Position numbers and translations under genes: made by a program | In this document: piece by piece, positions 1,949 through 29,899 of the stretch | How positions within the stretch are numbered: the stretch's first letter is position 1 | How the letters are laid out: each line of letters starts with the position of its first letter | The notes under the pieces: generated by a model | Told to the model about the DNA's origin: nothing | Database searches by the model: none | What the model saw: the letters and a program-made list of their open reading frames with translations, nothing else | DNA from: a virus | DNA: 30,312 nucleotides | Reading direction: 5' to 3' (one strand) | Virus record (IMG/VR): IMGVR_UViG_3300044961_000340 | Coordinates: 1-30,312 of that record

Positions 1949-2323
1949 ATGGCCGGACAAGAGGGCGGGCAGCAAAGAAGAAGGGATAGATGGAACTGCG
2001 GACGTTGCCATGAATGCGGCACAGAACTGCTCATAGTGATGGACGGAGAGCATTGGTGCTGCACCTGCAAGACCTACCGTCGCTACCATAGCCATGGCTG
2101 GGCATATACCGCCAGCGACCCGAATAGTAACCAGTGTCCGAAATGGACATTGGCAATCAGCAAACGCAAATGGAAGCAAATAGTCAAAACGTGGGGCATA
2201 AAGCATGGCAGGCAGCGAGAGGGGAAGAAGAAGGACGATGATGGAATGAAGACAACGGCGAGTGAAAGGATTAAGGATGATGGCGGAAAGACGGATGTTG
2301 TCGGCTTCGATTGCCGAGGATGA
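1949..2323 (+). CDS. zinc-ribbon protein, 124 aa
   Basis: ATG 1949 has a strong AAAGGGAGG ribosome site. The N-terminal third holds a four-cysteine ribbon, CHEC at about residues 20-23 and CCTC at about 37-40, separated by a short hydrophobic turn. A Tyr/His-rich stretch and a Lys/Arg-rich C-terminus follow. This is the look of a small nucleic-acid-binding zinc ribbon. The last 47 bases overlap the start of the replication initiator in another frame, so the two are probably translationally coupled. The C-terminal basic tail may be partly shaped by that overlap. The exact family is not identified. Confidence 0.65.
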   Translation: MAGQEGGQQRRRDRWNCGRCHECGTELLIVMDGEHWCCTCKTYRRYHSHGWAYTASDPNSNQCPKWTLAISKRKWKQIVKTWGIKHGRQREGKKKDDDGMKTTASERIKDDGGKTDVVGFDCRG

Positions 2324-3332
2324 GGCGTTGAATCGATTGAGCATAGAAGCTCAATTGTTGTTTTTGATGACGATTCCACATTTAGACCGTGATGGTCTGA
2401 TAAGTGGTAATCCCCGTGTGTTTTTTGGCAAGGTATGTCCATTGCGGGATGAATTGCGGGATCAGATATTGAGTCTCATCAACGAATGGGTTGATCAGGG
2501 TTTGGTTATTCGGTACGAAGGGAGTAATGGGCCGGTTTTGTTTTTTAAGTCTTTTCGGCGTCATCAGATAGGTTTGGATTATGCACGTGATAAAGCAAGT
2601 CGATTTCCGCCTCCTCCAGGCTGGTTGCGGACGCCTGAGGGGTTGGTGCCTGAGGATCCATATCTGGCGGTGACGTTGGCGGAGTCGTTTGACGTTCGTT
2701 CTGGGTATCGACGGGTATTGCTGGAGCATGCGGCGGCGGGTGGTTTGTCGGTAGCTGACGAAAATCTTACAAAAACGACTTCGCGACAAGATCGCGATAA
2801 TGTCGCGACAACATCGCGAAGACTTCGCGATAATGTCGCGTCTAAGATAAAGATAGATATAAAGATATCTGATGATGATGGCCAGATAGATATTCCTCCA
2901 GCCACTGTTAATTGTGATGGGGGGGGGTGCAGGGGGGGGGATGCGAGCGAGGAAGATTTGCGAGCGTTCTGTCTGATGTTGGTGGATAAAGTGTTTGGAA
3001 CGACGTGGGATGGTGTGAAGGAGTATGTAGAGAAATTGATGTACGACGATTTGCTGAGGCTGATGGGTTGGTTGTGGAAGTGTATGGTGCGTCCGAAGTG
3101 GAGTGCGACGATCGGGGTCGGGTTTATCCGCTCGATGATGGTGAAGGGCTCGACAGCGAGTCTTACCACGGATGAGCATCAGGCGATGGTAAATGCATTG
3201 GATATGTTTGTATTGGATCCGGGTGTTGAGTTGTTTGTTGAAGAAAAAGTTGAGCGGAATGAATTATTGTGTCGATATGTTCCTGAGGAATATAGAGACA
3301 TAATTGTGTGGAAAGGGGAAGAAGAGGGATGA
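2277..3332 (+). CDS. replication initiator / phage replisome organizer-like protein
   Basis: About 351 residues. Residues 1-100 resemble the winged-helix N-terminal domain of phage replisome organizers: a helical start, a run ending in LDRDGLISGNP, and a helix-wing segment through LFFKSFRRHQ. A linker (about 165-222) is encoded by iterons, an AT-rich run and two G tracts. A C-terminal helical domain (about 225-345) contains several Trp residues. ATG 2277 is chosen because GAAAGGA lies 6 bases upstream; an in-frame GTG at 2262 is possible. Known analogues (lambda O, Gram-positive phage DnaD-like proteins) bind iterons within their own genes, and the same layout is seen here. The domain match is by eye, so the initiator role is inferred from the N-terminus together with the embedded iterons. 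It is followed by an ATGA-coupled gene and parA. Confidence 0.7.
   Translation: MMAERRMLSASIAEDEALNRLSIEAQLLFLMTIPHLDRDGLISGNPRVFFGKVCPLRDELRDQILSLINEWVDQGLVIRYEGSNGPVLFFKSFRRHQIGLDYARDKASRFPPPPGWLRTPEGLVPEDPYLAVTLAESFDVRSGYRRVLLEHAAAGGLSVADENLTKTTSRQDRDNVATTSRRLRDNVASKIKIDIKISDDDGQIDIPPATVNCDGGGCRGGDASEEDLRAFCLMLVDKVFGTTWDGVKEYVEKLMYDDLLRLMGWLWKCMVRPKWSATIGVGFIRSMMVKGSTASLTTDEHQAMVNALDMFVLDPGVELFVEEKVERNELLCRYVPEEYRDIIVWKGEEEG
2781..2900. other. putative origin of replication (11-bp phased iterons plus AT-rich element)
   Basis: TCGCGA occurs at 2781, 2792, 2803, 2814 and 2825, and TCGCGT at 2836. That is six copies with an exact 11-bp period, one turn of B-DNA. Because 11 is not a multiple of 3, the protein repeats only every 33 bp, so the periodicity is selected at DNA level. 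Immediately downstream (about 2841-2900) the sequence turns AT-rich (AAGATAAAGATAGATATAAA and on), as expected of a DNA-unwinding element. The layout copies the lambda origin inside gene O. Function is inferred. Confidence 0.65.
2919..2940. repeat. two 9-G homopolymer tracts in the initiator gene
   Basis: G runs of nine occupy 2919-2927 and 2932-2940, separated by TGCA. They encode a Gly-rich linker (DGGGCRGGD) at about residues 214-222 of the initiator. Runs of this length are slippage-prone, and any length change other than three would frameshift the initiator. They sit just beyond the iterons and AT-rich element. Confidence 0.85.
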
Positions 3333-3505
3333 ACCGCAAACCAACACCGTCCGTCCTGGACGCCGTACTGTCTGCCGACGCGCCCGACTGTGCGGCGCTG
3401 CGCAATCGCCTGTGCTACGACTACGCCGCCGTGCAGATGGTGCACCGCAAAGCCGTCGAGGATGCTGCTAAGGAATCTACCATCGTGATTGGTGAACGGC
3501 GATGA
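3329..3505 (+). CDS. hypothetical 58-aa protein between rep and parA
   Basis: ATG 3329 overlaps the initiator stop (ATGA), a sign of translational coupling. The product is short, helical and charged (start MNRKPTPSVLDAV), with three cysteines but no paired knuckle. It ends 9 bases before parA. By position it could be a small regulator of replication or partition. Nothing in the sequence proves that, and no family is recognised. Confidence 0.55.
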   Translation: MNRKPTPSVLDAVLSADAPDCAALRNRLCYDYAAVQMVHRKAVEDAAKESTIVIGERR

Positions 3506-3514
3506 GGAGGAAGG

Positions 3515-4228
3515 ATGACGAAGATTATTGCAGTGGCGAATCATAAGGGCGGTAGTGGGAAAACGACAACCACCTATTATCTGGGGCTGGCGTTGGCGGC
3601 ATCAGGGCGCAACACATTGCTGATCGATTTTGACGACCAGGCGACATTAACAAACAAACTTTATAAAGCCTGGACTCCAGGGCAGACAACAATCGCTGAT
3701 GTACTGGACGGGATGGCGCTGGCGACGGCACTTTGTCAATACGATGTTGGGTTGCAGTACGTACCCGCAGACCACCGGTTGGCGTGGATTGCGGCACGGA
3801 TGCAGGCGTCCAGCCCTAACCATGCCTTCCTGCGCCGTGCCTGGCAGCGGGCCAACATGCAGCCGGAGTATGTGCTGATCGACTGCCCGCCAAGCGCCGG
3901 GGTGCTGCTGATCAATGCGCTGGCTCTGGCGGATTGGGTGCTGATCCCGGCAACGCCAACAGAGGAGAGCTATGCCGGCGTGCTGAGGATGCAAGCGATG
4001 ATTCAAGAGATCGCTTGCACGCTCAACCATCCGGTTAAACCGCTGGGCATAATGGCGACAATGGTATCGCCGTCATCAATAAGCGAGCAGAAGTATCTCA
4101 ACTTGATGGGGGAGATGGAGATAGGGAGAGTGCCTCGAAGGGTGGGGCAGACAGCAGATGCGGAACTGCGTTCGACGTATGCAGAGGTGGCCAAGACGGT
4201 AATTCGGATTCTGGAGAGTGAAAGATGA
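3515..4228 (+). CDS. parA: ParA-family partition ATPase
   Basis: A 237-residue Walker-type ParA/Soj ATPase. The deviant Walker A motif KGGSGKTT is at residues 11-18 and the Walker A' segment LLIDFDDQA at about 37-45. The Walker B-like VLIDCPPSAG lies near residue 120, followed by the ILINALALAD-type helix. It lacks the N-terminal DNA-binding extension of type Ia plasmid ParA proteins, so it resembles the short type Ib or chromosomal Soj form. The ribosome site is GGAGGAAGG before ATG 3515. The stop overlaps the start of the ParB-like gene (ATGA). Such ATPases bind nucleoid DNA and move ParB-centromere complexes so that each daughter cell inherits the plasmid. Its presence argues that this phage persists as an extrachromosomal replicon. 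Confidence 0.92.
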   Translation: MTKIIAVANHKGGSGKTTTTYYLGLALAASGRNTLLIDFDDQATLTNKLYKAWTPGQTTIADVLDGMALATALCQYDVGLQYVPADHRLAWIAARMQASSPNHAFLRRAWQRANMQPEYVLIDCPPSAGVLLINALALADWVLIPATPTEESYAGVLRMQAMIQEIACTLNHPVKPLGIMATMVSPSSISEQKYLNLMGEMEIGRVPRRVGQTADAELRSTYAEVAKTVIRILESER

Positions 4229-5973: not shown

Positions 5974-6078
5974 CTCCGGCTGATGGTCTGCGCACCAGCC
6001 GGAGCACACGGATGCGATGTCGCCGCATCCGACGCTTATTATACAAGGCGGATTGCAGCGACAGCAATCCGTTTTTTT
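5974..6078 (+). terminator. three tandem hairpins ending in a Rho-independent terminator
   Basis: Hairpin 1 has stem CTCCGGCTG (5974-5982) with CAGCCGGAG (5996-6004). Hairpin 2 has CGGATGCG (6009-6016) with CGCATCCG (6024-6031) and a 7-nt loop. Hairpin 3 has CGGATTGC (6049-6056) with GCAATCCG (6064-6071), a 7-nt loop, then seven T residues (6072-6078). Hairpin 3 is a classic intrinsic terminator downstream of parB. The loops of hairpins 2 and 3 are complementary over 6 nt, so the structure may act as an attenuator before the next gene. Confidence 0.85.
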
Positions 6079-6097
6079 GTTTATTAGCAGAACACCA

Positions 6098-7765
6098 ATG
6101 AGCCTGATCGACAAACTATTCGCCATCACTGTCGCCATCGTAGCCGCCATATTCGGCGGGTTATTGCTTCTCAACCGTGACAGTGCCGTGCGCATCGGTG
6201 GACACATCGAACGCTTTGTCGCCGACGTTCTGCAATTGACGCTGTATTGCTTGATCTTCATCATCATTTTCTCCGCCGTCGCCGGCCTGGTTTTCCTCTG
6301 GGCATTTATCAGCAAACGGCGATTGGAGAACATGCGACAACGGGACGGCTCCTATCCCCTCCAGCGGATCAAAATCAATGGCGGCTGGATATACGTCGAT
6401 CCCAACAAGATCATCGCACCAGCCATCGCTGTTGGCGGGCGCGGCGCGGTAGAGCTATTCACGGCGGATGCAGAGCTGCACCTGCGTCACGCCATCGAGC
6501 GCGCCAAAGTCAGCCAGATGCAGGCGTTGGTTCCCGGCGATGCCGCAATCGAAAGTCGTTACGGTTCGATGTACCGACCCGGTGCTGTTTTCAACAACGC
6601 TACCGGTCGTTACCTGGCGAATGCTTATGAACGAGTGCAGCGTCAGTTGCCGCAGCCGCCAGCAGCGCCGGAGCCGATGCCGGAAGCACCAGCCATGCAG
6701 CGCATCCGCCTGAGCGATGCCATGAACCGCTGCATTCAAACGCAGCTCATCGCCGGGCAGGCTGACGATGGAGCGTTGGCGATTTTCAATCCGCTCTCCA
6801 GCATTCACGGCGGCATTATCGGTGCAACCGGCACGGGCAAAACGACCAGCGTCGGATACAGCCTGGTAGCGCAGGCGTTGCGCACTGGTTACCACGTCGT
6901 CATCATCGATCCCAAAGGCGGCGTCGACTGGTCGCCGTGGTCACAGCATGTAGAGTGGCATGAGTCGACGCCGGATGTGTTTCCGCTTCAGGTCGAGGCG
7001 CTTTGGGCAGAACACGAGCGCCGGATGCGTCTGGTGCGCGAAGCGAACGTGCGCACTATCGACGACATCGGCGGCGTTCCGCATGTCATCGTCGTAATCG
7101 AGGAGTACGGCGACCTCATCAGCCAGTTGCGACGTGGTGACAGACGCACCGCCGACGCCACCGACAACCTGCTCGACCGGCTCATGCGCCTCAGTCGTGC
7201 CAGCGGCATTCACCTGCTAATGATTGACCAGTATCCGGAGGAGTGGTCGCAGCAGGTGATCGGCAACACCAAGTGGCTGGCGACTTTCCGCCTTGGGCCG
7301 AACCAGGGCGCAAAGGTGCGACAGTACAACGCCGACCGGTTGCCGGACTATGGGCGTTTTATTGTGCGTGAGCGAGAATACAACGCATGGTTTGCTGCGC
7401 CGTATCTGGAAAAGATACTGTCGTTTGTGCCGGCGAGCACGTTGCGTGTCATCGATGGCGAGTTCACCGTTCAGCCCGATGGAGGGGTGGCTACCTCTGG
7501 CGAACAGTCCATGAACGGCGCCATGAACGGCGCCATGAACGCACCGTCTACGCTGGAGGGCTGGTACGAGTGGACGCTGGCGAACTACCTTCCGCATCAT
7601 CCTGAACTTCTCCAGGTGGACGCCAACGGTCGAGGCATCGGCGTGCGTGCGCTGGCGGAGGCGATGGCAGCGCATGGACGGGGCGACGTTTCACAATATG
7701 AGGCGATGAAAGGCGTTGCCAGCGAAGTCGCCAAGCGATTGAGAATGAATTTTCGTGCGTCTTAA
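6098..7765 (+). CDS. membrane-anchored FtsK/TraB-like DNA translocase ATPase
   Basis: From ATG 6098 the product is 555 residues. An upstream in-frame start at 6017 would run through the terminator hairpins and is rejected. Two membrane helices lie at about residues 5-25 and 48-72. A cytoplasmic linker with a Pro-rich stretch follows, then a RecA-like motor with Walker A GATGTGKTT at 242-250 and Walker B VIVVIEEYGD at about 329-338. The C-terminus (about 480-555) contains a 12-bp tandem repeat encoding NGAMNGAM and then a helical, possibly winged-helix tail. This plan is that of FtsK/SpoIIIE and of TraB-type conjugal pumps, which move double-stranded DNA through membranes. Its job in a phage could be transfer, segregation or dimer handling. 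It ends tail-to-tail with the late operon. No ribosome site is obvious. Confidence 0.8.
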   Translation: MSLIDKLFAITVAIVAAIFGGLLLLNRDSAVRIGGHIERFVADVLQLTLYCLIFIIIFSAVAGLVFLWAFISKRRLENMRQRDGSYPLQRIKINGGWIYVDPNKIIAPAIAVGGRGAVELFTADAELHLRHAIERAKVSQMQALVPGDAAIESRYGSMYRPGAVFNNATGRYLANAYERVQRQLPQPPAAPEPMPEAPAMQRIRLSDAMNRCIQTQLIAGQADDGALAIFNPLSSIHGGIIGATGTGKTTSVGYSLVAQALRTGYHVVIIDPKGGVDWSPWSQHVEWHESTPDVFPLQVEALWAEHERRMRLVREANVRTIDDIGGVPHVIVVIEEYGDLISQLRRGDRRTADATDNLLDRLMRLSRASGIHLLMIDQYPEEWSQQVIGNTKWLATFRLGPNQGAKVRQYNADRLPDYGRFIVREREYNAWFAAPYLEKILSFVPASTLRVIDGEFTVQPDGGVATSGEQSMNGAMNGAMNAPSTLEGWYEWTLANYLPHHPELLQVDANGRGIGVRALAEAMAAHGRGDVSQYEAMKGVASEVAKRLRMNFRAS

Positions 7766-10251: not shown

Positions 10252-13241
<2,990 letters not shown>

Positions 13242-17913: not shown

Positions 17914-18308
17914 ATCTCCGCTCCGTCGTCATACTCGATCGTCAATGTGACAACTGCGCCAAACGCCTCCAGTTCCGGCGCATACTCGTCGGCACCGTCG
18001 CTGACGCTGATAAACCGGATTGAGCCGGTCGAACTGGTTTCGCTATAGGCGTCGAACAATTGGCGCACCGCTTCCGCCAGCGTGCGGGCTTCGGTGTAAT
18101 CGGCGGCCCAACAGACGATCTGCAACGTCACCGTGCGCCAGCCAGCCCGCCCCGCCAGCGTGTAACCTGGCGCGCTGTCAAGCCGCCGATATACCAGCGC
18201 CGGCAGTTCCGTCTCCTGGCGCATAACGACGGGCGTCACACGTCTGCCTACGGCGTCTGTGATCGTCGTATCGGTCAGCAACATGGCTGCGATGCGTTTT
18301 TCGATCAT
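17910..18308 (-). CDS. tail terminator / DUF3168-like protein, 132 aa
   Basis: Residues 1-60 (MIEKRIAAMLLTDTTITDAVGRRVTPVVMRQE, PALVYRRLDSAPGY) followed by LQIVCWAADYTEARTLAEAVRQLF match the pattern of DUF3168-type tail completion proteins. These have an N-terminal helix, two strands, then the helix that packs on the tail end. They cap the tail tube and join it to the head connector. It is in the canonical order after the gp10-like gene and before the tube protein, with ATGA overlaps on both sides. Confidence 0.8.
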   Translation of the reverse strand: MIEKRIAAMLLTDTTITDAVGRRVTPVVMRQETELPALVYRRLDSAPGYTLAGRAGWRTVTLQIVCWAADYTEARTLAEAVRQLFDAYSETSSTGSIRFISVSDGADEYAPELEAFGAVVTLTIEYDDGAEI

Positions 18309-18823
18309 CCGTTGTTCCAGGTTCTTTCAATAAGCTGCACCAGGCGGCGCTGCACATGGACTTCCGCTGCGCGGCGCATCTTGCGTTTTGCGTTTTGAAA
18401 GAAAGGACGCTTTTTCATGCGCCCCACGGCTCTCCATTTGCGTTTGGCGCCATGACCAGCGTTTTGCGTGCGCACGGTTCGCCCAAATTCGACGAAGCGA
18501 GTGTAAAAAACCGATGCCACAACCAATGCTTGATTAGGGCGAGGCGGAAACTTCAACGGCGAATTGAGACGCTGCCCATTGCGTCTGCGCACCAATGGCC
18601 GGTACTCATTACCGATAATGCTCGCCACATAGACGCCTCTCTTCATCTGTCCCGTGTCTACCGGCGCATTTGCCTGCGCTTCTCGCTGAATCATTTGGAC
18701 GCCCTCATGCAGTGCACGAGCAATTGAAGGTCCGCGCAACGCCACCTGCTCCGCTTTAAGTTTCTGCGATACGTTTTCATCAACTTTTATCCGCAGCCGA
18801 TTTCGGCTTCGTCGCCGCGCCAT
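18305..18823 (-). CDS. HK97 gp10-like head-tail protein, 172 aa
   Basis: The start is taken at MARRRSRNR (18823), which overlaps the CHAT gene stop as ATGA; an earlier in-frame start reads into CHAT sequence. The signature is ALHEGVQMIQREAQANAPVDTGQMKRGVY, followed by a basic loop, FYTRFVEFGRTVR and a basic C-terminus. The APVDTG and V(E)FG segments are diagnostic of HK97 gp10-like tail completion proteins. It is more basic than most (many Arg/Lys), which may reflect DNA contact or high growth temperature. Its coupling to CHAT means that CHAT translation probably affects its level. Confidence 0.88.
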   Translation of the reverse strand: MARRRSRNRLRIKVDENVSQKLKAEQVALRGPSIARALHEGVQMIQREAQANAPVDTGQMKRGVYVASIIGNEYRPLVRRRNGQRLNSPLKFPPRPNQALVVASVFYTRFVEFGRTVRTQNAGHGAKRKWRAVGRMKKRPFFQNAKRKMRRAAEVHVQRRLVQLIERTWNNG

Positions 18824-19653
18824 CAGCGCCGCCCTCCCCACCACATATACGACCACAACACTGCGCTCGCCGTATACGATAAAATCGCCAGACTCAGCGC
18901 CAATTGCCAGTCGATGCCCAGCATCTCGCGCACCTCGACGTAAAAGAGCGGTATGGGCAAGAAGAGCAACACAAATGCACCGATAAACACCATGTGATGT
19001 AACGGCGATAACCGTACCGCTATATCGATATTGATGTTCAACTGGTCAATGTCTTTACGCAAAGCGTTAATTTCTTGATTCATGCGGCGTTCTAGAGCGT
19101 CGATTTTGCTACTTAGTTTGTATCCCCACTCGTTGAGCATCAGAATCGTGCGAGTTTCCGTCGCCTCATTGTGCAAGTAGTCATAGAACAGCATATAGCT
19201 GGCGTTTTGCCCAGGTTTCGACATATCATATGCAGCTTTCACGTCTTTCGTTTTCGCCAACGCCTGCGCCAGCAACGCGCCGGTCTGGTACGCTGTTATG
19301 TCGTCGATTTCTGTCACAGTCGTGATGACCGAAACCTGCAATTCATAATGCAATTCCAGCCCGATTAGACGACTCGAACACGTGTTTAATATAACCAGCC
19401 AGGCGTTTGATGCTCGTACAATTGCTGTCAGGTCATTGATCGTGATATATCCATCGCTTAATTTGATGCCCCGTTCGTTGCCGTGTGTCGCAAACCATAT
19501 CACGTCCCAAATGTGACTTTGCAGCGCTTGCAATACGTCACGCCGGGTGACCGTACCATTGAGAATGACCGGGTGCAATGCCAGGCTGACAGCGCGCACC
19601 TCGTCGTTGACAGCCGTCAGCCCCAAATCGGGAGCGATCAGCAAAACGTTCAT
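18823..19653 (-). CDS. CHAT-domain (caspase-like) protease with two C-terminal membrane helices
   Basis: From ATG 19653 the product is 276 residues; a GTG at 19707 would add 18. Residues 1-12 form the first strand (MNVLLIAPDL). The caspase-hemoglobinase dyad is visible as WFATHGN with His-57 and VILNTCSS with Cys-92, the CHAT arrangement. Residues 180-212 form a charged coiled coil. Two membrane helices lie at about 221-239 and 249-270, with a short basic C-terminus. CHAT proteases are known in bacterial conflict systems, where they cleave effectors such as gasdermins or type III-E CRISPR partners. Here the gene sits inside the head-tail operon, between the head closure and gp10-like genes, coupled by ATGA to the latter. 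It has no structural counterpart in siphoviruses, so it is a cargo gene. Substrate and trigger are unknown. Confidence 0.82.
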   Translation of the reverse strand: MNVLLIAPDLGLTAVNDEVRAVSLALHPVILNGTVTRRDVLQALQSHIWDVIWFATHGNERGIKLSDGYITINDLTAIVRASNAWLVILNTCSSRLIGLELHYELQVSVITTVTEIDDITAYQTGALLAQALAKTKDVKAAYDMSKPGQNASYMLFYDYLHNEATETRTILMLNEWGYKLSSKIDALERRMNQEINALRKDIDQLNINIDIAVRLSPLHHMVFIGAFVLLFLPIPLFYVEVREMLGIDWQLALSLAILSYTASAVLWSYMWWGGRR

Positions 19654-19734
19654 GCCACTTTCGTTCGATAGTGCACCGATATCCGCACCGCCACCATTAC
19701 CAGGCACAGCACCGTCAACGCCTTTACCGCCTAA

Positions 19735-20066
19735 CTATCCCTGGTATTCTGCCTCTAAACAGCGCATCACTATCAAATCTTCAGCCGGCTTGGGCGTCAC
19801 CGCTTCGATGTGCAGTAGCTTACCACGCCATTTCAGTCGATCCTGATGTGTCACCACGACCCCGCTGCGGATTGTCACTTCGTAGCCAACAAGCATTACT
19901 GGCCTATCCGCTATGATCGACTCCCGTCCCGACCGGTCGAACACATTCGCCCATACCGTCTCGCCGTCTGCCCAATTCAGCACTTCGCCACCGAACGCAT
20001 CGCGCTCGACCGTCGCCCTCTGAATTGTCACCCGTTCGCGCAGATCGCCTGCGGTGATTCGCCGTC

Positions 20067-20070
<4 letters not shown>
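19735..20070 (-). CDS. head closure / head-tail adaptor protein, 111 aa
   Basis: The start at MRRRITAGDLRERVTIQ (20070) overlaps the connector stop (ATGA). The pattern RERVTIQRA, then D.FGGEVLNW and VWANVFDRSGRE, with a C-terminal IEAVTP strand, matches SPP1 gp16 / HK97-type head-tail joining proteins. These are small beta-barrels that close the connector after packaging. It is in the canonical position after the gp6-like connector. A 27-bp gap then leads to the possible early start of the CHAT gene, the only place where this head-tail run is interrupted. Confidence 0.82.
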
Positions 20071-20663
<593 letters not shown>

Positions 20664-20917: not shown

Positions 20918-20947
20918 CAGGAGAGCAGGCGAGCGCCTGCTCTCCTG
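20918..20947. terminator. 14-bp perfect hairpin directly downstream of the major capsid gene
   Basis: The arms CAGGAGAGCAGGCG (20918-20931) and CGCCTGCTCTCCTG (20934-20947) are perfectly complementary, separated by 2 nt. On the minus-strand transcript it falls 13 bases after the capsid stop and just before the next ribosome site. It has no U tract, so it is a weak terminator, RNase barrier or mRNA stabiliser rather than a full stop. The capsid end also carries a 9-bp tandem repeat (20952-20969) that duplicates the stop. Confidence 0.7.
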
Positions 20948-25184: not shown

Positions 25185-25188
<4 letters not shown>

Positions 25189-25349
25189 GATTTGGGCGTT
25201 GTGTGGCGGTCAAATTGCAACGCAAACAGAACAGCCAGCACGCCGACAAGCAGCAGTGTAAATGCAAAGCCCAAAAGCAGGTAAACAGCGATGCAGATTG
25301 CGGCGAGTCCGCACAGCAGCATCATGTCGCCAGCGTCGATTCGTCTCAT
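25185..25349 (-). CDS. small membrane protein, probably truncated by the IS remnant (54 aa)
   Basis: The start at [10 protein letters not shown] (25349) overlaps the upstream stop (ATGA) and has duplicated GGAG sites. One or two hydrophobic helices cover about residues 7-41 ([34 protein letters not shown], broken by a Gly-Phe pair), followed by a short charged tail. Its stop codon TAG is formed at the junction with the IS end, so the natural C-terminus is probably lost. A holin-like role is possible by position near the terminase genes. It is the best illustration of IS damage here. Confidence 0.55.
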
Positions 25350-25569
25350 GATTGATTCTCCGATTGATTCTCCGGGTGATGGCATTTACAAGCTGGATTC
25401 TCGCAGATATGCCAGCGGTGCGGGCGCGTCGCCGCGCATGTGCACGCATGGCCACCGGCGCAACGGTATGGACAGGCCGCCAGAGTGCTGCGCGTACGGT
25501 GGCCGGCGCGCTGCAAATCGCGCAAAGGCGACGGGAGAGGGGTGACGGGTGAAGGGCGCGCGGCGTTGC

Positions 25570-25573
<4 letters not shown>
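25346..25573 (-). CDS. small cysteine/histidine-rich protein, 75 aa
   Basis: It begins at ATG 25573 overlapping the TerL stop. The N-terminal half is Pro/Arg-rich. The C-terminal half carries Cys/His pairs (CPYRCAGGHACTC at about residues 34-46 and CENPACKCHH at about 57-66), consistent with one or two zinc sites. A 12-bp tandem repeat near its 3' end (25351-25374, GATTGATTCTCC twice) encodes the ENQSENQS tail and doubles a GGAG ribosome site for the next gene. The sequence is low in complexity and function is unknown. It may be a modified-start remnant, but the ATGA overlaps on both sides favour a real gene. Confidence 0.5.
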
Positions 25574-27149
<1,576 letters not shown>

Positions 27150-27150
<1 letters not shown>

Positions 27151-27617
27151 CACTTGAAAAAGTCGTCGTCGTCGTCGTCGTCCGATTCACTTACCATCAA
27201 CCTGGCGCGCGCTGATGGGTTCAACCCAAACAGCACACTGTACAGACGGAACGCCGCGCTGTTGTCGCGCAAGATTTGCAACATCGGATGCTTGCGCTCC
27301 ACGCCCTCTTCATCCTTACGGGTCAATTCCAGCTTACCGTCATCGTTGATCATGGCGGCGAGCGCAGCCTTGGCAATGGCGTAGTGGATCGACATGAGGT
27401 CGAGCGCGGCGATATCCGCTTCAGTCAGCACGCCGAGCTTGTCGAGCATCGGCCCGTATTTCCGCCAGAATTTGCGCACATCGGGCAGGCTGTTGGGCGG
27501 CGGTTTGAGCGGCGTGCGCAGCGGATCGGGTTTGGGTTCGTTGTAGTTGAGCTTGCGCTTACCCGGGTTGCCTTCAGCGACTTTGAGCGCGGTGGGTTTG
27601 GGCGGACGTCCTTGCAT
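27150..27617 (-). CDS. terS: terminase small subunit, P27 type, 155 aa
   Basis: The N-terminus (GRPPKPTALKVAEGNPGKRKLN) is the P27-family signature. A helical core follows (LTEADIAALDLMSIHYAIAKAAL), and a C-terminal acidic run of seven Asp is encoded by a GTC-type triplet repeat (about 27163-27182). TerS recognises the packaging start site and regulates TerL. The poly-Asp tail is unusual and built from a simple repeat, so its length may vary. It overlaps TerL. Confidence 0.93.
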
Positions 27618-27997: not shown

Positions 27998-28222
27998 TCA
28001 GCGGCTGTTAGGCGCCACCATGCCGGCCAATGCACCGACAGCGACGCTGCCGAGAACAATGACGGATTCGGGCAATTGTTTGTCGGCGTATGCCAGCACA
28101 ACGCCGCCGACGACGGCGAGGACGCCCAGCGTCGCCAGCGCGCTGACGACGATTAAAAAAATGTTGATGGACTTTGGATTGCTGATAATCGGCTCCGGGA
28201 GAGCATGCGGAAGGTCTTTCAT
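27998..28222 (-). CDS. small two-span membrane protein, 74 aa (holin candidate)
   Basis: MKDLPHALPEP at 28222 is preceded by AAAGGAG, inside the 3' arm of the operator-like palindrome. Two hydrophobic helices cover about residues 17-43 and 53-70 (INIFLIVVSALATLGVLAVVGGVV, VIVLGSVAVGALAGMVA), with short polar ends. Two-span proteins of this size at the head of a late operon are often holins, but no endolysin accompanies it. It is the first gene transcribed from the candidate late promoter. Its function is inferred only from topology and place. Confidence 0.6.
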   Translation of the reverse strand: MKDLPHALPEPIISNPKSINIFLIVVSALATLGVLAVVGGVVLAYADKQLPESVIVLGSVAVGALAGMVAPNSR

Positions 28223-28924: not shown

Positions 28925-29812
28925 TCATCTGGTCAGGGTCGCCAGCGCCGCATCGTACTCGCTGCGCACTGTGCTCGCCGTCGTGTGCGCATAGACGGCC
29001 GCCGTGATCGCCGGGTCGCTGTGACCCATCGCCGTGGCAACCGTCGTCAGCCGCACGCCGTTATTGAGCATCCACATCGCAAAGCCATGACGGAAGCGAT
29101 GGGGGCCGAACTTTGGCAGACCGGCCCGCTTGCACCGCCGGAAGATCATCTGGCGCACACCCTCCGGCTTCAGCACGCCGGCAACGCCGCCGTAACCATT
29201 GGACGATAGCCACAACTCCGCGCGATGTTCCGGTCGCAGGAAGAGATACGCCGTCAGCGCCGGGCGCACCTCCGGCGACATCGGCACCACGCGAGCCTTG
29301 TCGCCTTTGCCACGCCGCACCACCACCTCCAGCGACGCCACATCCAAATCGTCAACCCGGAGCGCGGCAATCTCACCCAATCGCAGCCCGCTAAAAAACA
29401 GCAACAACAGGATCAACCGATCCCGCTGACCGATCCAGTCGTCGGCGCAGGTCGCCAGCAACTGGCGCAGTTCTGATAGCGTGACATAGGGGCGCACCGT
29501 CTTCGGCACGGACGGCGCTTCCATCATCGAGATCGGATTGGCGTCACGGTCGATCTTCCGGCGCTTTTCAAGGAAGCGAAACAGCGCCTTGAGCGCACGG
29601 TAGCGAGCGTGAACAGTGGACGGCGACAGACCGGCGTCGTGGCAATCGGCGAGAAATCGCTCGATTTCCTCGACATCTGGCAGATCGCCATCCTTGCCAC
29701 GCCAGGACGCAAACGCTGCAAATTGCTCTGCGTACCACGCCAGCGTTTTGGTTGCGCGACGACGTGAACGTAAATATGTGCAGTGCAGGGAAATTGCTTC
29801 ACTGTACAACAT
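28925..29812 (-). CDS. int: tyrosine recombinase / integrase, 295 aa
   Basis: ATG 29812 is chosen because AGGAG precedes it at 6-7 bases; an earlier in-frame start lacks this. Residues 8-88 are a SAM-like core-binding domain. The catalytic domain carries Arg-144 (SGLRLGE), Lys-169 region (RRGKGDKAR), His-238xxArg-241 (HRFRHGF), His-264 (MGHSD) and the Tyr-274 nucleophile (VYAHTT), so all catalytic residues are present. It is closer in size to XerC/D-like simple integrases than to lambda Int, lacking a long arm-binding domain. It should recombine the adjacent attP with a tRNA-Gln gene. It could also resolve multimers. Confidence 0.93.
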   Translation of the reverse strand: MLYSEAISLHCTYLRSRRRATKTLAWYAEQFAAFASWRGKDGDLPDVEEIERFLADCHDAGLSPSTVHARYRALKALFRFLEKRRKIDRDANPISMMEAPSVPKTVRPYVTLSELRQLLATCADDWIGQRDRLILLLLFFSGLRLGEIAALRVDDLDVASLEVVVRRGKGDKARVVPMSPEVRPALTAYLFLRPEHRAELWLSSNGYGGVAGVLKPEGVRQMIFRRCKRAGLPKFGPHRFRHGFAMWMLNNGVRLTTVATAMGHSDPAITAAVYAHTTASTVRSEYDAALATLTR

Positions 29813-29899
29813 ATCGGACTCCTGTTGTAGTTGTAAAAGGGAAAACTTCTTACCGGCACAGGTGTCCGCACTGGTGTCATCGCAACTCCAGTGTAGCAC

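Follow-up and report, generated by a model that had tools for sequence, protein, structure and literature searches.

Why does a phage carry a gene for a caspase-like protease among its head and tail genes? The question is raised by virus record IMGVR_UViG_3300044961_000340, whose entire 30,312-nt stretch we call the window; the feature under study is one gene of this stretch, which had been predicted from the sequence alone to encode a CHAT protease with a membrane anchor. The window is the record of a linear 30-kb phage with integrase, ParA and replication-type genes. Its late strand reads, in order, terminase, portal, S78 protease, HK97-type capsid, gp6-like connector, head-closure type, CHAT, gp10-like, tail terminator and major tail protein.

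The ORF that the original prediction gave at 18823-19707 is present, on the minus strand; it has 294 codons and is limited upstream by a GTG codon at 19707. Because homologues begin at the same N-V-L-L-I-A-P, at the position of ATG 19653 in the window, the CHAT gene probably starts at this ATG and codes for a protein of 276 aa. Counted from ATG 19653, the numbering given earlier for the putative catalytic residues, H57 and C92, is correct. The features of the gene and of its surroundings are the following.

18823..19653, minus strand: CHAT-domain protease gene, probably 276 aa (Pfam CHAT, homologue starts and structure model)
19186..19653, minus strand: predicted CHAT/caspase-fold domain, residues 1-156 (AlphaFold2 model m949a59419384, SAVED-CHAT match)
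19483..19485, minus strand: H57 codon in the WFATHG motif, predicted catalytic His (invariant in 26/26)
19378..19380, minus strand: C92 codon in the LNTCSS motif, predicted catalytic Cys (invariant in 26/26)
19015..19155, minus strand: long helix, likely coiled coil, residues 167-213 (AlphaFold2 secondary structure)
18835..19005, minus strand: C-terminal membrane region with two predicted helices, residues 217-273 (hydropathy and model)
18305..18823, minus strand: HK97-gp10-like/Neck1 protein (PF04883, phrog_5), start overlapping the CHAT stop
19735..20070, minus strand: head-closure-type ORF of 111 aa, upstream of CHAT (matches a putative head-tail adaptor among PDB sequences with E 2e-6; L006 has a homologue at the corresponding place in its gene order)
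20067..20663, minus strand: gp6-like head-tail connector (PF05135, phrog_442)
25570..27153, minus strand: terminase large subunit of the same late gene set (PF20441, PF03354)
28001..28222, minus strand: 74-aa two-TM protein, upstream of HNH and TerS genes, homologue of the CHAT-coupled protein of L005/L007 and candidate partner

The CHAT gene does lie between a head-closure gene and a gp10-like gene, as proposed (PDB match at E 2e-6 for the former, PF04883 for the latter). The coupling to the gp10-like gene, described as ATGA, turned out to be a TGATG junction, in which the TGA stop codon of CHAT (18823-18825) gives its A to the ATG of gp10 (offset 0). On the other side, 81 bases separate the head-closure ORF from CHAT. 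A scan for sigma-70-type promoters alone found none around CHAT in the window (0 found versus 1.6 expected), and the idea that the gene has its own promoter was dropped for want of a site of this type.

Several other elements of the window may be mentioned here. An inverted repeat of ~30 bases lies just behind the capsid gene (20918-20947, detected as a reverse self-match) and may be a terminator or attenuator hairpin. The genes at 2262-4228 and 28925-29899, which code for a replication-initiation-like protein (phrog_1408), ParA and a tyrosine integrase, give the record the look of a phage-plasmid or an integrative phage. The TerL-portal interval contains a small hydrophobic ORF (25188-25385, minus strand), and similar short TM ORFs are seen by eye between terminase-like and portal-like ORFs in the homologous loci L108 and L116. 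An FtsK/HerA-like ATPase with two N-terminal membrane segments is encoded at 6017-7765 on the plus strand and has relatives in the CHAT phages G004 and G005; L081 codes for a DUF87 ATPase with two TM segments (10425-12068), so that this ATPase type recurs in CHAT-bearing phages.

The window protein matches the Pfam CHAT family (PF12770) at the margin, with 24.1 bits for the 294-aa form at a cut-off of 24, and it matches no other Pfam domain above cut-off. In a whole-record search of eight records, including the window and a near-identical twin, all matched CHAT with E ≤ 2.4e-6; six scored above the cut-off, with up to 37.8 bits among the relatives, and the window (22.9) and its twin (23.0) fell just below it. 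Among more distant relatives, L062, L064, L066, L067 and L081 passed the cut-off and L082 (21.8) and L080 (16.5) failed it. When a 12-member profile was searched against all PDB sequences, SAVED-CHAT came first (E 3.7e-5) and caspase-3 second (E 0.035). In this search, H57 aligned with the His of HFIGHG in SAVED-CHAT and of THG in caspase-3, and C92 with the Cys of LNAC and of QAC, respectively. 

An AlphaFold2 model built from 26 sequences has a mean pLDDT of 87, with block means of 82-96 up to residue 160. Foldseek placed SAVED-CHAT far ahead of all others (E 3.2e-9), and VIA aligned the model with SAVED-CHAT (PDB 8tl0) with Z 20.4 and 2.1 Å for 161 residues, over residues 1-163, at 20% identity; the next VIA matches were caspases (caspase-6/7), legumain and gingipain (Z 13.6-14.8). 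An earlier model from seven close sequences had a pLDDT of 70, and its top Foldseek matches were SAVED-CHAT and caspase-4. VIA ranked SAVED-CHAT sixth for it, with Z 9.1, among receiver and Rossmann folds, an ambiguity that is settled by the Z of 20.4 of the deeper model. The structural check proposed at the outset, against CHAT/caspase folds, has therefore returned the caspase-hemoglobinase fold. In BFVD, the best match was A0A1P8DJ94 (264 aa, E 1.2e-7), and in PADLOC residues 52-112 of the 294-aa ORF matched BovA weakly (E 8e-4). A single-sequence phmmer search against the PDB returned nothing but designed Pizza proteins, through a 21-residue repeat, which we took as chance. No holin family was matched by the CHAT protein, for which Pfam gave CHAT and one sub-threshold hit and PHROGs one match at E 0.096. 

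Beyond the CHAT domain, the model has a 47-residue helix (residues 167-213), likely the coiled coil that had been proposed, followed by C-terminal helices at residues 217-231 and 249-273. Kyte-Doolittle averages likewise bear out two C-terminal membrane helices in the window protein, a strong first segment at residues 221-239 (2.46) and a weak second one at residues 251-269 (1.45). A C-terminal membrane segment exceeds the hydropathy threshold in 13 of 14 intact loci found later. Model and Pfam together account for the 276-aa protein as a CHAT domain, one long helix and two membrane helices; they reveal no fused sensor of the SAVED or TPR kind. The Pfam match, the PDB profile match and the structural likeness all agree with the CHAT/caspase identity first proposed, and the view that the ORF encodes a CHAT-domain cysteine peptidase (caspase-hemoglobinase fold, clan CD) with a predicted His/Cys dyad and a predicted membrane tether is well supported by computation.

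We then compared the locus with those of the relatives, which come from many other uncultured phages and whose ORFs were called by a simple longest-ORF rule that sometimes takes the wrong frame. The close members of the family, 61-68% identical to the window protein, are L003, L005-L008, L045, L058 and L078. Seven of the nine close members, the window included, are found in related head-tail connector clusters, and the other two (L058, L078) were placed by eye. The nearest arrangement is that of L006, whose connector, head-closure and gp10 genes are homologous to those of the window and in the same order. L003, L007, L008 (read as L044) and L045 share one family in the upstream, connector place and one in the head-closure place, and the gp10-like genes of L003 and L007 tie their loci to the window type (phmmer E 2.8e-7 for L007 against the window). 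L005 is close kin of L007, with a CHAT protein 91% identical. Judged by eye, L058 resembles these loci in its gene order and L078 in the gp10-like gene that comes after CHAT. The CHAT gene directly follows the connector-place gene in L003, L005, L007, L008 and L045, and the head-closure gene in the window and L006. An ATGA overlap joins CHAT to the structural-type gene upstream of it in L045 and L058. The gene thus recurs at this kind of locus in related phages, L006 being an example, which is what the original prediction had proposed to look for. 

The rest of the head genes are not necessarily shared. By tblastn, L005, L007 and L008 gave no match to the TerL, portal, protease, capsid or connector of the window, so CHAT is common to phages with different heads. 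Conversely, no CHAT match was found in 30 other capsid-related loci (L010-L039), nine of which extend at least 2.5 kb past the connector. An S78 prohead protease is present in both the window and L006.

In an alignment of 26 distinct members, the window included and the near-duplicates L109, L114, L115 and L117 left aside, residues A7, E18, H57, G62, L65, N90, C92, S94, D118, A129 and A141 are invariant. Both H57 and C92, whose conservation had been named as a check, are thus kept in 26/26, an invariance that is partly by construction because His or Cys motifs served to find some of the members. L058, L062, L064, L066 and L067 came from a pattern requiring WFATHG and LN.C, and the later scans used patterns on the His motif, a TAY-type motif or the Cys motif. 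The motifs that led to L003, L005-L008, L045 and L078 lack at least one of the two residues, and L078, L080, L081, L098, L105 and L119 deviate from the His pattern of their own scan. The flanks of the His motif vary (FVSHG, VLAHG, VAGHG, LGHS, CGHA, CGHM) while H57 and C92 stay. Codon comparisons indicate that the CHAT gene is under purifying selection: third codon positions are the most divergent in every pair compared, and for L005/L007, the closest of these pairs, dN is 0.068 versus a dS of 0.716 (dN/dS ~0.1). Two variants of the gene were also noted. The CHAT gene of L078 (903-1766) encodes GKNYLLFH twice in tandem, a short internal repeat by which a loop is made longer, and L118 (6001-6252, on the same contig as L086) is a truncated CHAT of 83 codons to the first stop, followed by a separate hydrophobic ORF.

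The divergent members, ~25-36% identical, comprise L062, L064, L066, L067, L080-L082 and the 14 intact loci of the last scan; the truncated L118 is excluded from all counts. We searched 21 divergent records for TerL domains. In 13 of the 18 with a match, TerL lies at most 3 kb downstream of CHAT on the same strand. Several records are near-identical phages (L108 and L109 have the same protein, L114-L117 nearly the same), and the counts are not those of independent events; by lineage, the proportion is ~9/14. In L106, L098, L082, L084 and L085, CHAT is not just before the terminase. Apart from TerL genes with Pfam matches, the terminase, gp10 and connector names in L058, L078 and L098-L119 were assigned by eye.

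A second recurrent feature is a small membrane protein encoded immediately after CHAT. We counted an ORF as a coupled partner if it starts at most 12 bases from the CHAT stop, codes for 40-200 aa and has a strong hydrophobic segment. By this rule, which was set after cases had been seen, the next gene is a partner in 8/16 CHAT loci, including the close kin L005 and L007, versus 4/168 other genes on the same contigs (Fisher p 1.9e-7). Before the last scan, we had predicted coupled membrane ORFs in at least about half of the loci still to be found. The yield was much lower than this: the rule was strictly satisfied by 3/14 intact new loci (L099, L105, L106), with L104 a near miss. Against the same baseline, this later set gives a Fisher p of 0.011, or 0.004 if counted as 3/10 lineages. 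Seven of the nine close members (the window, L003, L006, L008, L045, L058 and L078) have no small membrane gene adjoining CHAT, and in the window CHAT adjoins gp10.

The coupled partners are small proteins with one to three TM segments that belong to several unrelated types. L005 and L007 code for a two-TM protein, and the L007 partner is homologous to the 74-aa two-TM protein encoded at 28001-28222 in the window (phmmer E 1.4e-15). The multi-TM partners of L081 and L099 are homologous (phmmer E 1.9e-8); those of L081 and L082 are alike in a single BLASTP comparison alone (E 2e-4), with no phmmer match at 0.05. A one-TM protein with a Cys-Pro-Gly stretch is shared by L064 and L106 (E 6.5e-26). 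In addition, a two-TM protein of G004 recurs in L082 right behind the CHAT cassette. Searches with Pfam and PHROGs gave no confident holin match for the coupled partners, nor any gasdermin match, and these libraries could miss a divergent gasdermin; the immediate neighbours in the window are the head-closure-type and gp10-like proteins. The small membrane ORFs of the window were also considered as holins, and the matches were sub-threshold: CyanoTRADDas_TM (E 0.008-0.07), Phage_holin_5_2 (0.17) and CATASP (0.22). Diverse holin-like sets are known in phages (PMC9671378).

In two phages, the CHAT cassette extends to a lysin. L064 and L106 share the order CHAT, membrane protein and M23 lysin, and the lysins, which are large and homologous, are 31% identical over 620 aa. 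The first (in L079, the record of L064, 8635-10899) has Pfam M23 and SLT domains and an N-terminal stretch that looks glycoside hydrolase-like by eye; the second (L106, 7706-9760) has an M23 domain and lies behind CHAT. Since these phages carry both genes, CHAT is not simply a lysin replacement. No lysin of four families (M23, Amidase_2, SLT and NLPC_P60) was detected in the window, G004 or G005, and none appears among the Pfam matches listed for 50 chosen ORFs of these three records (best 25 of 29 families). M23 lysins occur in 3/13 capsid kin without CHAT versus 2/27 CHAT records, many records being fragments; the difference is not significant (p 0.18), and loss of lysins from CHAT phages was dropped as an argument. 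In the two measurable capsid kin without CHAT, the M23 lysin lies 1.3 kb before TerL. Amidase_2 was found in neither set (0/27 and 0/13), and among CHAT records SLT occurs in 1/13 and NLPC_P60 in 0/13.

We looked for the family in sequence databases. In tblastn searches of 50,697 deposited phage records, the CHAT proteins of the window, L064 and L066 found no match; the family may therefore have gone unnoticed. Two pattern scans of a genome collection gave one match, L045 (CALJZP010000306.1), a 16-kb phage contig binned as Azonexus. It is possibly a stray phage contig or a binning error, because among 200 genomes drawn from the phylum of this bin only the bin itself matched. The TerL of the window matched 1548 deposited phage records, all below 60% identity and with diverse hosts. 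The CHAT protein of L064 matched two Halorussus plasmid records and one from Streptomyces, over 37-38% of its length at ~30% identity.

How does this protein compare with known CHAT proteases? SAVED-CHAT, a type III CRISPR effector (PDB 8tl0), resembles it in the CHAT fold of residues 1-163 and in the aligned His and Cys motifs. SAVED-CHAT, however, confers immunity and joins the protease to a SAVED domain that binds cyclic nucleotides (PMC11229360), whereas the phage protein has a predicted membrane anchor and no SAVED domain was found in it. The genes of bacterial gasdermins often adjoin those of the caspase-like (C14/CHAT) proteases that cleave them, and endolysin-like genes sometimes lie close by (PMC9612521). 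The likeness is that of a protease encoded beside a membrane-acting protein; the differences are that the phage partners are small 1-3 TM proteins without gasdermin matches and that the phage protease has a predicted membrane anchor of its own. Csx29 (TPR-CHAT) of Craspase is likewise a CHAT cysteine protease and cleaves Csx30, a substrate of its own locus (PMC10028731). In contrast to Csx29, which has TPR and pseudo-caspase domains and is activated by RNA, the phage CHAT has no such parts.

Phage lysis cassettes, which combine holin, endolysin and accessory membrane proteins, offer another parallel, given the small 1-3 TM proteins, the M23 lysin in two phages and the position near the terminase. 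Lysis genes near the terminase are the lambda-like order. To our knowledge, lysis cassettes are not known to include a caspase-fold protease, and none was described in them among the literature matches listed. Nor did these matches, which leave subscription papers and preprints out of scope, include a description of a phage-borne, membrane-anchored CHAT family. CHAT proteases are already known; what appears to be new is a conserved phage family with a predicted C-terminal membrane anchor and membrane partners.

By analogy with these systems, we tentatively favour, at somewhat less than an even chance, a membrane-tethered CHAT protease that is expressed late and cuts a membrane-associated protein to promote or time lysis. 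The original prediction had offered exclusion of rivals, host death and a missing lysis factor as possible roles. Across the genomes compared, the coupled membrane proteins (less frequent in the later set), the pre-terminase position in most divergent records and the two M23-lysin cassettes tip the balance towards a role at the membrane or in lysis, and a late membrane-tethered protease is favoured because the pattern resembles systems made of a protease and a neighbouring target, i.e. gasdermins and Csx29/Csx30. Its computed support consists of the fold, the conservation of the dyad, selection, membrane-helix prediction, operon position and the association with small membrane proteins, and we infer late expression, orientation and topology, catalysis, substrate, effect and the link to lysis. 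The CHAT protease would be expressed together with the late structural genes, with its C-terminal helices in the host cytoplasmic membrane, its protease domain toward the cytoplasm and a catalytic dyad formed by H57 and C92. It would cleave a membrane-associated protein late in infection, the likeliest substrate being the phage's own small membrane protein. Several relatives encode such a protein immediately beside CHAT; in the window, the substrate would perhaps be the two-TM protein of 28001-28222. Cleavage would help to depolarise or permeabilise the membrane or to time lysis, much as bacterial CHAT/caspase-like proteases act on neighbour-encoded gasdermin or Csx30. 

That the gene serves another end has to be weighed against this. 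The closest CHAT protein of solved structure, SAVED-CHAT, is an immune effector (PMC11229360), PADLOC gave a weak BovA match (E 8e-4), and the gene is accessory, being absent from the 30 other capsid-related loci, including the nine that reach at least 2.5 kb past the connector, and common to phages without detectably similar capsid genes, as expected of cargo. All of this would suit superinfection exclusion or inter-phage competition, in which a dormant tethered CHAT protease would respond at the membrane to host signals or to a second phage and then put the cell or the rival out of action. We nevertheless regard such a role as rather doubtful: no sensor domain was found, the coupled small membrane genes and the lysin neighbour would be left unexplained, and separate expression in lysogeny is doubtful because of the ATGA overlap with the upstream gene in L045 and L058 and the lack of a sigma-70-like site around CHAT in the window. 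The accessory distribution would also fit host take-over or anti-defence, in which the protease would play no part in lysis but would cut defence sensors or membrane proteins of the host during infection, and a host substrate would agree with an anchored protease that has no adjoining membrane gene in seven of nine close members. A place in the late operon is, however, late for counter-defence, and the coupled membrane genes and lysin cassettes again find no explanation, which makes this unlikely. 

The location itself speaks for morphogenesis, with CHAT processing a head-tail connector or tail protein or riding in the virion, since seven of nine close members are in related connector clusters despite differing neighbours, L058 probably too by its gene order, and the gene overlaps structural genes. 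Yet capsid kin of the same connector family do without CHAT, the window and L006 already have an S78 prohead protease, the divergent relatives are mostly elsewhere and membrane helices are unusual in virion proteins of tailed phages; we consider this role decidedly unlikely. Finally, the window protein taken alone sits at the Pfam cut-off (24.1 and 22.9 bits versus 24) and might pass for a dead or non-functional look-alike of CHAT, but the invariance of H57, N90, C92, S94 and D118 in 26/26, the dN/dS of ~0.1 for L005/L007 and the Z of 20.4 to SAVED-CHAT make that highly improbable.

Returning to the late, membrane-tethered protease, one form that it could take is a caspase-like death switch of tailed phages in two parts, the anchored CHAT protease and a small membrane protein whose cleavage would open or depolarise the host membrane as infection ends. 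We see this as a possibility to be held with considerable doubt. If true, it would be a viral counterpart of the caspase/gasdermin pair that lyses the host rather than stopping a virus, and the timing of lysis would involve proteolysis, beyond holin accumulation alone.

Caspase-fold CHAT proteases are known mainly from cellular immune and cell-death systems. If many phages keep a conserved, anchored CHAT protease with their packaging or late genes, viruses would be turning this death machinery to their own purposes, and the family would offer a new mechanism of lysis or exclusion. The recurring small membrane partners provide a concrete list of candidate substrates for a CHAT protease that may help to kill or burst the host cell.
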